From contig NZ_BJVK01000007.1 in the NCBI RefSeq assembly GCF_007989105.1, positions 1 to 64,000 of the forward strand: 64,000 nucleotides of DNA, in the 5' to 3' direction. The DNA is from Lentilactobacillus kefiri. Lineage in GTDB: Bacteria; Bacillota; Bacilli; Lactobacillales; Lactobacillaceae. The notes under the pieces were generated by a model that did not search any database, was not told the DNA's origin, and worked only from the letters and a program-made list of their open reading frames with translations. Of this stretch, positions 9,093 through 16,559 are shown piece by piece. Within the stretch, counting starts at the first letter, position 1. Each line of letters begins with the position of its first letter. Position numbers and translations under genes: made by a program.

Positions 9093-10172
9093 TCACGCCT
9101 TAACCGCCTTAATGGCAAGAAATTCTTGAATTTGATCGCTTGGAATAGCTTTAATCACAGGCCCACCAATTTTATGGACGTAGATTAAGCTCAAATGACC
9201 ATCACGATTCTTTTTATCATTTTTAATTTTATCAAATACCTTGTCAGAGTTCAGCAGGTCGGATGTTACCGGCAGGCCAACTGCTTCCAAGCGTTCGCGT
9301 AACTCCTGGGTAATACCGGGAACCGCCAAACCTTTGTCTTCAAAAATCTGCTGCATCGCAATCATCCCAATGCTGACGGCTTCACCATGACGCAAGCCGC
9401 CATCAGATAACGCCTCGACAGCGTGGCCGATTGTATGACCGTAATTCAGAAGTTTTCGAAGACCGCCTTCTTTTTCATCACCCATCACAATATCCGTCTT
9501 GTACTGAACTGAGTGGATGCTCAGTTCTTCAGCATTTGCCAAAATATCTTCTGGTGAGTTGATTGATTTAACCAAGTTCCACAGATCACCATCAGATAAG
9601 GCAGCAACCTTAACGATTTCACCATAACCTTCTACGAGATCACGCCTTTTCAAAGTTGTTAACGTGTCAGGATCAATAATGACCAAGTCAGGTTGATAGA
9701 ATGAACCGACAATGTTTTTGATTGAATCCAAATCAACGGCTGTTTTACCGCCGACAGAACTATCAACCTGCGCCAACAATGAGGTCGGCATTTGGATGAG
9801 ACTGATGCCACGCATATACGTTGAAGCCAGGAATCCGGCTAAATCACCAGTCACCCCGCCGCCCAAAGCAATGACACCATCATCGCGGTTGAAGCTGTCC
9901 GCTGCCATTTGTCGGGTCAGATCGGCTAATACTTCCAGGGATTTTGAATCTTCTCCGGCAGGAAATTGGTATTCATGAACGATGAAACCAACTGCCTCAA
10001 GTGCTTCTGCAACTTGATCCTGGTATATCGGGGCAACATTGCTGTCACTAATTAAGGCAATTTTTCGTTTATCCCAGACACTTGAAACCAACTGGCCTGT
10101 ACAGCCTAAAATTCCTTTGGCAATTTCAACATTGTATGAATGATCTGGCAGCTCAACTTTGATTATTTTCAT
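9093..10172 (-). CDS. aroB: 3-dehydroquinate synthase AroB
   Basis: This catalyses step 2 of the shikimate pathway, DAHP to 3-dehydroquinate, NAD-dependent, in the cytoplasm. The 359 residues match the usual length. The NAD/metal-site motifs are visible: ALGGGVTGDLAGFLASTYMRG near residues 100-120, PTSLLAQVDSSVGGKTAVD near 129-147, and the metal-binding His cluster in LLNYGHTIGHAVE near 242-254. The start overlaps the aroF stop as ATGA, so both enzymes are translationally coupled and share the aroF leader attenuator. It ends at a parS site. Confidence 0.96.
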   Translation of the reverse strand: MKIIKVELPDHSYNVEIAKGILGCTGQLVSSVWDKRKIALISDSNVAPIYQDQVAEALEAVGFIVHEYQFPAGEDSKSLEVLADLTRQMAADSFNRDDGVIALGGGVTGDLAGFLASTYMRGISLIQMPTSLLAQVDSSVGGKTAVDLDSIKNIVGSFYQPDLVIIDPDTLTTLKRRDLVEGYGEIVKVAALSDGDLWNLVKSINSPEDILANAEELSIHSVQYKTDIVMGDEKEGGLRKLLNYGHTIGHAVEALSDGGLRHGEAVSIGMIAMQQIFEDKGLAVPGITQELRERLEAVGLPVTSDLLNSDKVFDKIKNDKKNRDGHLSLIYVHKIGGPVIKAIPSDQIQEFLAIKAVKA

Positions 10173-11185
10173 AATTTGACCTCACTTTTTTCTTGAATTG
10201 GGGTAGTAATAACGTTGCGAATCGCAAATGCTTGTTTAGCCATTGCACGGTACTCGTCTGGCTTGAGTGCTTGGGCGCCGTCCGAGAATGCATGGGCAGG
10301 ATCGTCATGAATTTCAACAACCAGTCCGCTGGCACCGACTGCTGCTCCGGCTAATGCTTCGGGTGTAACAAATTCGGTATGACCGGCAGCGTGGCTTGGG
10401 TCAAGGATCACTGGGTAATGGGTTAATTTTTGAAGAACCGGCACCGCACCAACATCAAGCGTGTTTCGAGTGTATTTGTTATCAAATGTTCGAATGCCCC
10501 GCTCAGTAATGATGATATTATGGTTGCCGCCAGCAGCAATGTATTCTGCAGCATTTAAGATGTCATCAATCGTAGCAGACATTCCACGTTTTAGCATTAC
10601 TGGAGTCTGAGTTTTTCCAACTGCCTTCAGCAATGAGAAGTTTTGCATGTTTCGAGCACCAATTTGGAAAATGTCGGTGTACTGTTCAACCATTGGGACG
10701 TGATCCTGATCCATAACTTCGGTCAAAACATCCATATCGTATGCATCAGCAGCTGCCCGAAGGAATTTCAAACCGTCCTCACCAAGGCCTTGGAATGAGT
10801 ATGGCGAGGTCCGTGGCTTGAAAGCACCACCTCGAAGAACCGTAGCACCGCCACTTTTAGCAACTTCGGCCATTCTCATAACGTGATCAGCTGATTCAAC
10901 AGAACATGGACCGGCCATCATCGTGAAGTTGTCGCCGCCAATTTGACTATGAGCTGTCGTAACGATGGTATCTTCTGGATGGAATAGTCGGCTTCCCTGA
11001 ACTGCAGCAGGGACATTGTCGATAATGAGATCCGTCGCATTCTTTTCTTCAGCGTTTAAATCTTCTTCACTGATTCCCTGAATTGCCACGCGGTTGTTAT
11101 GAACAAACACCTCGTTGGTTTCAGTGAAGCGGCTCTTAATCTCATCAATAATGTTTTCATGGCCATTCTTAATTACAATAATCAT
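10169..11185 (-). CDS. aroF: 3-deoxy-7-phosphoheptulonate (DAHP) synthase
   Basis: This is the first committed step to aromatic amino acids, condensing PEP and erythrose 4-phosphate. The 338 residues hold an N-terminal ferredoxin-like regulatory domain (about 1-70: IIVIKNGHENIIDEIKSRF) and the TIM-barrel catalytic domain with AGPCSVES, GGAFKPRTSPYSFQGLG and DPSHAAGH. This is the AroF type seen in Thermotoga and Bacillus. The ATG at 11185 has GGAGA upstream; the longer frame to 11254 runs through the attenuator terminator and is rejected. It heads the aroF-aroB operon, preceded by its own promoter (11493-11521), a leader peptide with aromatic codons and an intrinsic terminator. Confidence 0.94.
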   Translation of the reverse strand: MIIVIKNGHENIIDEIKSRFTETNEVFVHNNRVAIQGISEEDLNAEEKNATDLIIDNVPAAVQGSRLFHPEDTIVTTAHSQIGGDNFTMMAGPCSVESADHVMRMAEVAKSGGATVLRGGAFKPRTSPYSFQGLGEDGLKFLRAAADAYDMDVLTEVMDQDHVPMVEQYTDIFQIGARNMQNFSLLKAVGKTQTPVMLKRGMSATIDDILNAAEYIAAGGNHNIIITERGIRTFDNKYTRNTLDVGAVPVLQKLTHYPVILDPSHAAGHTEFVTPEALAGAAVGASGLVVEIHDDPAHAFSDGAQALKPDEYRAMAKQAFAIRNVITTPIQEKSEVKL

Positions 11186-11223
11186 ATATATTATCTCCAT
11201 TTCCGTATTTGACGTATTTTGAA

Positions 11224-11262
11224 TAAAATAAAACTCCCACAGTGTGCCTAACACTGCGGGAG
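11224..11262 (-). terminator. Attenuator terminator in the aroF leader
   Basis: On the minus strand CTCCCGCAGTGT pairs with ACACTGTGGGAG and is followed by TTTTATTTT, about 40 bases before the aroF start. The segment AAATACTGCGGGA at 11288-11300 can pair with the terminator 5' arm (TCCCGCAGT), giving an alternative antiterminator. Confidence 0.85.
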
Positions 11263-11287
11263 TCGAAATTTTGTGTAAAAAAATGGG

Positions 11288-11414
11288 TCCCGCAGTATTT
11301 TGTAAAAATAACTGTGTGACCGAAGTAAGTAATCATGACGAAATACTATTGGCCGCACAAGATGTGAGTGAGTGCCCACATCCTGTCCGGTGTGAACACT
11401 AAGCGTACCAATAG
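11288..11414 (-). promoter_or_regulatory. Alternative-pairing region of the aroF attenuator
   Basis: Several exclusive pairings are visible on the minus strand. CTATTGG (11408-11414, inside the leader's Tyr-Trp codons) pairs with CCAATAG (11346-11352). AGTATTT (11341-11347) pairs with AAATACT within 11288-11300. ACTGCGGGA (same segment) pairs with the terminator arm. A hairpin GATGTG/CACATC lies between. This is the layout expected of a ribosome-controlled attenuator; the direction of control is not settled by inspection. Confidence 0.65.
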
Positions 11415-11452
11415 AAATAAAATCGATTAATTTTTGAATTAATTTTTATCAT
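11399..11452 (-). CDS. Aromatic-codon leader peptide of the aroF operon
   Basis: This 17-codon ORF reads MIKINSKINRFYFYWYA. It has AGGAGA eight bases before its ATG and lies about 35 bases after a promoter with perfect 17-bp spacing. Six of its last seven residues are Phe, Tyr, Phe, Tyr, Trp and Tyr, the three end products of the pathway that aroF starts. A stop codon, alternative hairpins and an intrinsic terminator follow. By analogy with trp/phe leader peptides I infer ribosome stalling at these codons when charged aromatic tRNAs are scarce. It is too short for normal gene calling. Confidence 0.8.
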   Translation of the reverse strand: MIKINSKINRFYFYWYA

Positions 11453-11492
11453 GATTAGAATCTCCTAAGAAAGTTAAATTTTAATTGCATTG

Positions 11493-11521
11493 AGCATATA
11501 ATGAATTTGAAAATGTGTCAA
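11493..11521 (-). promoter_or_regulatory. Promoter of the aroF-aroB operon
   Basis: On the minus strand TTGACA (11516-11521) and TATGCT (11493-11498) are separated by 17 bases. Transcription would begin near 11486, just before the leader-peptide RBS. Confidence 0.7.
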
Positions 11522-11582: not shown

Positions 11583-11917
11583 CAACTAAATACCGTCCTA
11601 AATAAACCATTGATGTGGAGATCAAGATTGTTGTGCACGTAAAGAGAGTCGCTATCGCTGAGAATGTGACCGAACGCAGGCAGTTAAATGGACCACTGAG
11701 GGTTCTTCCGAAAGTATTCGAGTACGAAGAAACGTGTTGGCATACGTCAGTTGCCGGAGGGATGTTAGTCCCTTGCTAAGCGTAATTGATAAAACAGATA
11801 ATCATTGAGTATTGAACCATTTGTATAGAAAGATTATCTGTTTGGATCAATTGAACTAAGGTGGCACCGCGGAATGAATCCGTCCTTAACTCTATGGAGT
11901 TATGGGCGGATTTTTTA
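11583..11917 (+). promoter_or_regulatory. T-box riboswitch, likely tryptophan-specific
   Basis: The leader holds the stem I signature AGAGAGTC near 11644, the T-box AAGGTGGCACCGCGG at 11858-11872, and a terminator (ATCCGTCCTTAACT/AGTTATGGGCGGAT, then T-run, 11878-11917). In the specifier loop, TGG at 11689-11691 is followed by A and by CCAC, which pairs with GTGG on the 5' side of stem I; a UGG specifier predicts tRNA-Trp. Uncharged tRNA-Trp should permit readthrough into trpE-trpG. Confidence 0.9.
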
Positions 11918-16251: not shown

Positions 16252-16304
16252 AACAGAGTAAAAGTTTAATCGACTTTATATCTATTAGCTCACACAAAAA
16301 AGAA

Positions 16305-16385
16305 TTTCGTTCTTCCTTCGACAGTCCTAACTGCATCAGGTTCAATGGGTTTTTCTCAGCCGTTTAGGGCACCCCAGACTACTTA
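16305..16385 (-). promoter_or_regulatory. TPP (THI-box) riboswitch aptamer
   Basis: Read on the minus strand, the segment has GGGGTGCC, then CTGAGA, ACCC, and GAACCTGATGCAGTTAG with ACTG and GAAGGAA. These are the diagnostic conserved blocks of the TPP aptamer. With the terminator at 16219-16251 it forms a transcriptional OFF switch for the ylmB-ykoE operon. Confidence 0.93.
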
Positions 16386-16559
16386 TTCAATTCGCCAATA
16401 ATTCATTGACTGGTTTTATGATATAACGAAACGCCAAAAAGTCAAAGCAAAAATGTGAAGCGCCAACTGAAAAGACGATCCGAAATATCGAATCGCCTTT
16501 ATAATCTTCCCGTTGTGTTATTCATTTGACCTAAATGAAAACTTTATCCCATAAGATTT

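Follow-up and report, generated by a model that had tools for sequence, protein, structure and literature searches.

Attenuation by a leader peptide is known from textbooks as a mechanism of enteric bacteria; in Lactobacillales, amino acid genes are usually expected to be led by another RNA device, the T-box, which binds tRNA directly and without translation. The subject of this study is the leader of the aroF-aroB operon in a 64,000-nucleotide stretch of Lentilactobacillus kefiri DNA (contig NZ_BJVK01000007.1, positions 1 to 64,000; hereafter the window), which very probably acts as a ribosome-mediated transcription attenuator that monitors the charging of the Phe, Tyr and Trp tRNAs jointly. 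It resembles T-boxes in that uncharged tRNA would be sensed for the same pathway, and one T-box lies on the opposite strand here. Enteric trp and phe leaders, in comparison, have fewer segments, sense a single amino acid and serve the branches that lead to end products, not the common trunk. Panina et al. (2003) reportedly treated aromatic regulation in low-GC Gram-positives. What the present leader shares with the enteric trp and phe leaders is ribosome-mediated attenuation by a codon-rich leader (PMC10989985).

The closest counterpart in working is the enteric his leader, in which helices A:B, C:D and E:F terminate transcription, B:C and D:E allow readthrough, and a short peptide carries a run of cognate codons (PMC10989985). 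The aroF leader has the same topology of segments A to F and a short codon-run peptide; unlike hisL, it would sense three amino acids, has an additional helix (P1), belongs to a Gram-positive host and has an A:B helix that starts within the codon run. We regard it as his-like in its working, and common descent is not claimed. Histidine leader peptides are reported in Firmicutes, with no aromatic leaders mentioned in the excerpts consulted (PMC2965389, PMC9413887), and the main text of PMC2494555 contains neither 'leader peptide' nor 'aroF'. Ahead of aroF itself, uORFC-13-1 of Acholeplasma is a leader open reading frame (ORF) with a promoter and a terminator, for which translation sensing was proposed; Phe is the only amino acid noted for its codons, and its 24 representatives come from Acholeplasma and environmental sequences only, exclusively upstream of aroF (PMC8632094). 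A 270-nt element upstream of the ATP-binding cassette (ABC) transporter gbs2033 of Streptococcus agalactiae is conserved in Lactobacillales and was proposed to be a riboswitch; elements of this type also occur before aroFBC-tyrA of Enterococcus faecium, and short and long transcripts were seen by RNA-seq (PMC4448216). Finally, sRNA_2410 of E. faecium is a 195-nt RNA with two transcripts by Northern blot (PMC5593968). A literature search on aro and aromatic leader peptides, in which most papers were judged by their listing and most subscription journals lay outside coverage, gave no recognised description of the present peptide. An earlier note on this DNA, made from the sequence alone, knew of no such attenuator described for a lactobacillus aroF; this has to be qualified, as the gbs2033 element and Rfam family RF02863 are related elements already in print, and the Acholeplasma aroF upstream ORF has been published as well. 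What is new is the leader peptide, the joint aromatic sensing and the Lactobacillales-wide regulon, the family being partly in print under other labels.

All coordinates of the aroF leader are on the minus strand of the window and are listed 5' to 3' from high to low numbers, with the basis of each feature:

11493..11521, minus: sigma-70-type promoter TTGACA-17-TATGCT (consensus scan, 10/12 matches)
11461..11466, minus: Shine-Dalgarno (SD) sequence AGGAGA of the leader ORF (read from the sequence)
11448..11457, minus: segment S, start-codon region, can pair with T at 11339-11330 (minimum-free-energy fold and cognate-pairing test)
11399..11452, minus: leader ORF of 17 codons, ATG at 11452 to TAG at 11399, peptide MIKINSKINRFYFYWYA (sequence)
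11408..11414, minus: segment A1, CTATTGG on the Tyr-Trp codons, partner B2 (helix covariation)
11395..11400, minus: 5' arm of the candidate sensor helix P1, overlapping the stop codon (covariation and ribosome masking)
11378..11389, minus: segment A2, partner B1 (helix covariation)
11371..11376, minus: 3' arm of P1 (covariation and ribosome masking)
11346..11365, minus: segment B, made of B1 (11365-11354) and B2 (11352-11346), pairs with A or, through 11360-11351, with C (covariation and cognate test)
11330..11339, minus: segment T, complementary to the leader start-codon region (minimum-free-energy fold and cognate test)
11311..11322, minus: segment C, partner B for readthrough or D for termination (covariation and cognate test)
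11286..11299, minus: segment D, partner C or, as antiterminator, E (covariation and cognate test)
11251..11264, minus: segment E, 5' arm of the terminator (hairpin search and cognate test)
11222..11245, minus: segment F, 3' arm of the terminator and T-rich tail (hairpin search)
10169..11185, minus: aroF, 3-deoxy-D-arabino-heptulosonate 7-phosphate synthase, ATG at 11185 (NCBIfam NF006421 and TIGR01361, over cut-off)
9093..10172, minus: aroB, 3-dehydroquinate synthase (TIGR01357, over cut-off)

The promoter, the AGGAGA, the 17-codon ORF, the mutually exclusive hairpins and the terminator before aroF, all of them named in the earlier note, are present. The ORF contains the consecutive aromatic codons TTT TAT TTC TAT TGG TAC and is the sole ORF on either strand of the window that satisfies a fixed rule (SD AGGAG, GGAGG or AAGGA, 8-35 residues, at least five F/Y/W within six residues), whereas none was found in 20 block-shuffled windows. 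The CTATTGG at 11414-11408 is complementary to CCAATAG at 11352-11346, and the intrinsic terminator (11264-11232) consists of a 14-bp stem and a loop of 5 followed by TTATTTTATT. The 271-nt leader including the terminator folds at -78.4 kcal/mol, with a z of -7.4 against dinucleotide shuffles. Five promoter-grade sites (10/12 matches) were found in the scanned region, where 3.4 are expected by chance; among the aligned same-genus rows, 18 of 20 show TTGACA and the remaining two are cut off at that point. The parts of an attenuator can be read from the sequence: a short ORF from SD to stop with codons for the pathway products, a predicted terminator before the first structural gene, and predicted exclusive helices of which one lies over the codon run.

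The proposed switch has two states, A:B with C:D and E:F for termination and B:C with D:E for readthrough. When aromatic amino acids are sufficient, the ribosome would reach the stop codon and cover the 5' arm of P1. With P1 blocked, A2 would be available for B1, and A1 would join B2 after the ribosome has departed; once A:B has formed, C:D would form and E:F would terminate transcription. If any one of Phe, Tyr or Trp is short, the ribosome would stall, mostly 3-7 codons ahead of the stop, hiding A1 and leaving P1 free. P1 would then sequester A2, B:C would pair, D would be released to E and RNA polymerase would read through. Without translation, the long A:B stem would favour termination. 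The S:T helix at the start codon, seen in many members, probably turns off leader translation after the decision has been taken. P1 appears to begin at the stop codon and to compete with A2:B1; as modelled, it would be a post-stop sensor helix, free with the ribosome on the aromatic codons and covered with the ribosome at the stop.

The helices of the terminating state are supported by covariation. On 39 elements (38 distinct), A:B and C:D together have 88.8% of cells paired, compared with 27.5-40.7% in slid controls, and two-sided changes in 22 of 32 pairs, compared with 2-8. The A1:B2 helix is 98.4% paired with two-sided change in 7 of 8 pairs, and the A2:B1 helix 95.0% paired with 8 of 12. 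A compensatory swap was observed in the Trp codon region, where TATTGG/CCAATA of the window's genus is replaced by TATTATCAACC/GGTTGATAATA in genus g6, whose leader reads SYYYYQPR (g, L, G and C numbers are our handles for genera, loci, genomes and contigs). The 77 model-aligned elements, whose alignment was itself fitted to the structure, have 92.2% of cells paired and 26 of 31 two-sided pairs (slid controls 29.0-39.6% and 8-17). On the 39 elements, P1 together with B:C is 84.3% paired (slid 25.9-43.7%), with a covariation score of 0.215 where slid controls reach at most 0.085; P1 alone has 93.1% of cells paired (columns 40-44/63-67), with two-sided change in 2 of 5 pairs.

The 77 elements were put to a cognate test, in which the duplex energy that a segment reaches with its own partner is set against that reached with partners taken from other genera. 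The own partner was stronger in 77/77 elements for A:B, 64/77 for B:C, 61/77 for C:D and 61/77 for D:E; E:F also gave 77/77, which is uninformative by construction, the hairpin search having defined E and F as its two arms. For the control pairing B:D the own partner was stronger in just 36/77, as for no relation. The S:T helix, formed by the SD-start region and a segment between B and C, is stronger with its own partner than with those of other genera in 60 of 76 elements (L016 excluded) and stronger than shuffles in 65 of 76, being weak or absent in g20, g30, g6 and g7. The six segments overall show the his-type pattern of A:B, C:D and E:F as opposed to B:C and D:E at the level of predicted pairing, with failures in some genera.

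These tests also bear on a simpler, trp-type competition, in which A:B would be opposed by an antiterminator of B with D and no B:C/C:D relay would take part. Its A:B helix, CTATTGG:CCAATAG, is genuine, and in three genera B:C does not pass the cognate test, but B:D has no cognate preference whereas B:C, C:D and D:E overall do. The scheme also has the wrong sign, because a stalled ribosome would leave B free to pair with D and so favour termination, and we judge it very improbable. The wiring drawn in the earlier note is accordingly kept in its CTATTGG:CCAATAG part, which covaries, and given up in its AGTATTT:AAATACT (B:D) part, which was rejected as an antiterminator for its lack of cognate preference and would give reversed regulatory logic.

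The relation between ribosome position and P1, on which the proposed attenuator depends, was calculated on RNA made up to just before B, with positions -15 to +11 nt relative to the A site masked as the assumed ribosome footprint. A P1 of at least 4 bp is predicted in 75 of the 77 elements without a ribosome and in 76, 75 and 70 with the A site at stop-5, stop-4 and stop-3, and is lost nearer the stop (16 at stop-2, 6 at stop-1 and 0 at the stop). Aromatic codons occupy stop-7 in 63 elements, stop-6 in 54, stop-5 in 77, stop-4 in 75 and stop-3 in 68. Since P1 forms through stop-3 and the codons cluster from stop-7 to stop-3, most, though not all, aromatic codons are at positions that spare P1. 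A second set of 60 elements shows the same trend more weakly, with P1 in 45 without a ribosome, 38 at stop-3, 18 at stop-2 and 0 at the stop, and with an aromatic codon at stop-2 in 39/60.

Several observations weigh against the attenuator as proposed. In the 77 elements, 36 have an aromatic codon at stop-2, where P1 is mostly unable to form (16/77). The two-sided pairs of P1 with B:C (7/17) are no higher than in slid controls (3-7), and their pair types were matched by 178 of 500 shuffles. In the cognate test, B:C shows no advantage for its own partner in g3, g30 and g38, D:E is not above foreign partners in g30, g38 and g7 and is level in g22, and in g1, the window's genus, C segments pair less strongly with their own D than with foreign ones. 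Five of the 28 leaders before aroF have no Trp codon. The same-genus locus L016, at a contig end, is without a convincing start or SD, and 10 of 61 matches in a wider set have no SD by the patterns used, eight of them being YYYFWFM-type leaders, mostly from g16. Equilibrium folding of the 77 elements through E, with the ribosome footprint masked in the free, stalled and at-stop states, left B:C and D:E unmoved in most members: mean D:E was 3.3 bp free and 3.4 stalled, C:D 7.0 and 6.9, and D:E gained more than 2 bp in 3/77 and lost more than 2 bp in 2/77. The window's own element (L001) favours D:E in all three states. The full switch as predicted is given by L145 alone, where D:E has 0.8 bp in the free state, 11.9 when stalled and 0.5 with the ribosome at the stop; a partial one is given by L154 and L160, and L130 moves in the opposite direction. 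As most members do not switch at equilibrium, switching would rest on co-transcriptional order; the 3' arm of P1 is transcribed before B1, which suggests that the order of transcription matters. The leader ORF, the terminator and the segments that are complementary to one another, together with the conservation of all of these, are direct observations, from which we infer the switching logic.

An aroF orthologue is present in 20 of 24 same-genus genomes, and the aromatic frame is kept at the expected place in all 20 of these loci, with the cores FYFYW, FYYYW, FSYYW, YYYYW, YYFW or YYYW. The terminator is likewise retained in 20/20. Relatives that had lost the ORF or its aromatic codons while keeping the terminator, which the earlier note had named as telling against its proposal, were not found among these loci; its expectation of conserved aromatic leader ORFs and covarying stems upstream of aroF is borne out by them and by the 22 two-sided pairs given above, and its assignment of a Phe/Tyr/Trp leader-peptide attenuator to aroF-aroB is supported by conservation, covariation and gene context. 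The 77-element alignment (A4) was assembled from members picked by ORF or by model match, the ORF picker demanding at least three F/Y/W, and L163 was excluded from counts as a duplicate of L137. An aromatic ORF with start and stop is present in 77/77, an SD by a pattern list in 75/77 (the exceptions being L016 and L160) and a terminator-like hairpin in 77/77 (a count with no null control). In the wider set the ORF is found in 61/61 matches and the SD in 51/61. The aromatic codons are not independent of the search because they lie partly inside the models and the picker required three of them; gene identity, which lies outside the model, and D:E are independent of the search.

The spread of the element was surveyed with three successive covariance models, R1, R2 and R3, whose E-values are rough. 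Within the window's family, aroF was found at E <= 1e-60 in 148 of 397 genomes. Upstream DNA was checked directly at 60 places in the family and ten further g20 loci: a leader stands immediately before aroF in g6 (4/4), g2 (3/3) and g32 (2/2) and before the aroE of an aroE-aroF operon in g20 (10/10), and most other sampled places have none immediately before aroF, the model later locating many further upstream. At one such place (L050, G056, genus g34) a T-box-like core motif was seen upstream of aroF, while the simple pattern used revealed no aromatic leader of the present type; the sensing device was possibly exchanged there. R1 matched 78 of 397 family genomes in 14 of 40 genera, and 74 of the 78 matches lie on the aroF contig and strand, about 0.08-3.2 kb upstream (lists compared by eye). 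The other four are before aroC-aroA (G078), before an aminotransferase (G102 and G128) and in G186. In G186 (L155, C7:17701-17795) the leader is shortened, with the ORF and the later part retained and the A:B hairpin gone, possibly deleted between short CAGTAAT repeats (compared by eye with L126), and the downstream region is decayed, with an AroB-like fragment. In G102 (L154, C15) an internally repeated stretch separates the terminator from the aminotransferase gene; it is shorter in G128.

R1 recovered no g16 elements and few transporter or aminotransferase copies, and R2 and R3 were made for those; three of the 61 sources of alignment A5 (L177, L178 and L179) were below threshold and excluded. 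Across the order (395 genomes) R2 gave 22 matches, of which eight fall outside the family: five stand before aroF, two before an ABC transporter binding protein and one before aroE-aroF. With R3, 142 of 395 family genomes matched, belonging to 23 of the 40 genera sampled; in a sample of 378 genomes from the class it matched six, the window's genome included. Seven opposite-strand model matches (E 0.0014-0.046) were judged inverted-repeat artefacts and removed by a stricter threshold. The window's genome (G000) carries a second copy (L181, contig C30:16479-16588) with the leader MQHQLNIQMNSCRYYFWFFQV before a pyridoxal phosphate aminotransferase, which matches PF00155 over cut-off and has its best NCBIfam match below cut-off. 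This weak match (R3 E 0.0035) was retained because an SD, an ORF and the aminotransferase are present; two other weak matches in the same genome, an antisense one and C1:55947, were rejected. In L176 a second aromatic leader (2850-2989) lies about 1.2 kb after the first; it overlaps a match to RF04312 'trpB ncRNA motif' that stays under the threshold (43.8 bits, where 59 are required), and that motif is possibly a related attenuator.

Target genes were surveyed for 137 elements (77 of A4 and 60 of A6), the next gene being classed by crude motifs, which for example misfiled three g2 aroF loci as 'other'. The next gene is a transketolase in 34, aroF in 28, an aminotransferase in 26, aroE in 25, a TrpX-like binding protein in 14, aroC in one and another gene in nine. 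In all, 128 of the 137 elements precede one of six gene classes (shikimate, transketolase, aminotransferase, transporter), compared with 1/77 antisense and 3/77 shuffled stretches by the same motifs. The leader codons swap among Tyr, Phe and Trp yet mostly remain aromatic, and their mix follows the gene: a Trp codon occurs in 103/137 leaders, in 34/34 before transketolase and in 0/14 before TrpX-like genes. For one TrpX-like protein, NCBIfam gives 'tryptophan ABC transporter substrate-binding protein' as the best match, with a score under the cut-off. As TrpX-like leaders are of Phe and Tyr only, these transporters would carry Tyr/Phe rather than Trp, a cargo that the leader composition suggests. 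At L204 (G231, C33), tandem TrpX-like genes each have a leader of their own, one Phe-rich (FFTGFFG) and one Tyr-rich (YYYGYYG).

The published relatives probably belong to the same family. Among 20 loci searched with R3, 12 of 13 from Streptococcus and none of the seven others match at E <= 0.05; one of the 12, L243, has its match downstream of the query gene, and the thirteenth, L242, is unmatched. In S. agalactiae (L235) a match (E 3.3e-6) lies upstream of a TrpX-like gene, with the leader MLIKSSIIKQTNTYYYFSFFR behind AAGGAG and about 287 nt from the likely start to the terminator, where 270 were reported. Gene type and length, not a locus tag, point to this locus being gbs2033 rather than a paralogue. 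The published description takes the element for a riboswitch and, in the part available, has no leader peptide (PMC4448216). On that model, a metabolite riboswitch would bind an aromatic amino acid or a precursor, and the ORF would be incidental. We consider this very unlikely: the S. agalactiae element itself encodes an aromatic leader behind an SD, the in-frame aromatic run is bounded by start and stop in 77/77 with an SD in 75/77, the codons interchange while mostly staying aromatic, and their composition follows the regulated gene.

RF02863 (sRNA_2410) scores over its gathering score in 6 of 18 sources, all outside the window's family, namely at aroF (L171, L173), aroE-aroF (L179, L187, L189) and an ABC transporter (L178); the gathering score was not reached in the other 12, the window locus L001 included, and the S. 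agalactiae match is below gathering. The name alone suggests that RF02863 is the sRNA_2410 of PMC5593968. It is filed as a small RNA of Enterococcus, unlike the leader attenuator proposed here, and a mainly trans-acting small RNA with the terminator hairpin as its 3' end would accord with these matches and with the 195-nt RNA of the same name, but this is the least probable explanation, as the large majority of elements lie upstream of, and on the same strand as, aromatic-pathway-type genes and have an aromatic ORF and a candidate antiterminator, and two transcripts are also compatible with termination and readthrough. The short terminated transcripts reported for relatives fit the attenuator (PMC4448216, PMC5593968).

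We consider it likely that one homologous attenuator family runs the aromatic regulon of Lactobacillales and of at least one genome from another order of the class, controlling transketolase-aroE-aroF, aroE-aroF, aroF-aroB, aroC-aroA, aminotransferases and ABC transporters, with a codon mix tuned per target (Phe/Tyr/Trp for most common-trunk leaders, Phe/Tyr for TrpX-like ones) and a post-stop sensor helix through which the ribosome's position is read, and with the gbs2033 'riboswitch' and sRNA_2410 as members.

Two other RNA elements were observed in the window:

11601..11890, plus: T-box leader of the divergent trpE-trpG (Rfam RF00230)
16296..16386, minus: thiamine pyrophosphate riboswitch (RF00059, 63 bits), lying ahead of the genes at 16179-14345 on the same strand

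The divergent T-box, which the earlier note had also pointed out, matches RF00230 at E 4.8e-18, but its 82.1 bits are below the gathering score of 93; its specifier was read by eye as UGG. TrpG matches TIGR00566 over cut-off, and the best NCBIfam match of TrpE is below cut-off. The aroF leader has no RF00230 match, this family matching only on the trpEG side, and an Rfam search of it gave nothing over gathering score and, at E <= 10, only chance-level, opposite-strand matches (E 2.6 and 3.8).

Judged on conserved sequence, the aroF leader is a real and strongly conserved leader-peptide attenuator whose switching is proposed from its arrangement; the earlier note was right on its kind and partly wrong on its wiring, and its scope reaches far beyond one operon. 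A leader-peptide family of shared architecture in 23 of 40 sampled genera of one family and in other families alters the T-box-centred picture of these bacteria, and would tie two published RNAs, filed as a riboswitch and a small RNA, to one mechanism. Leader composition would further predict the substrates of transporters annotated for tryptophan, and a single switch would sense three amino acids together.
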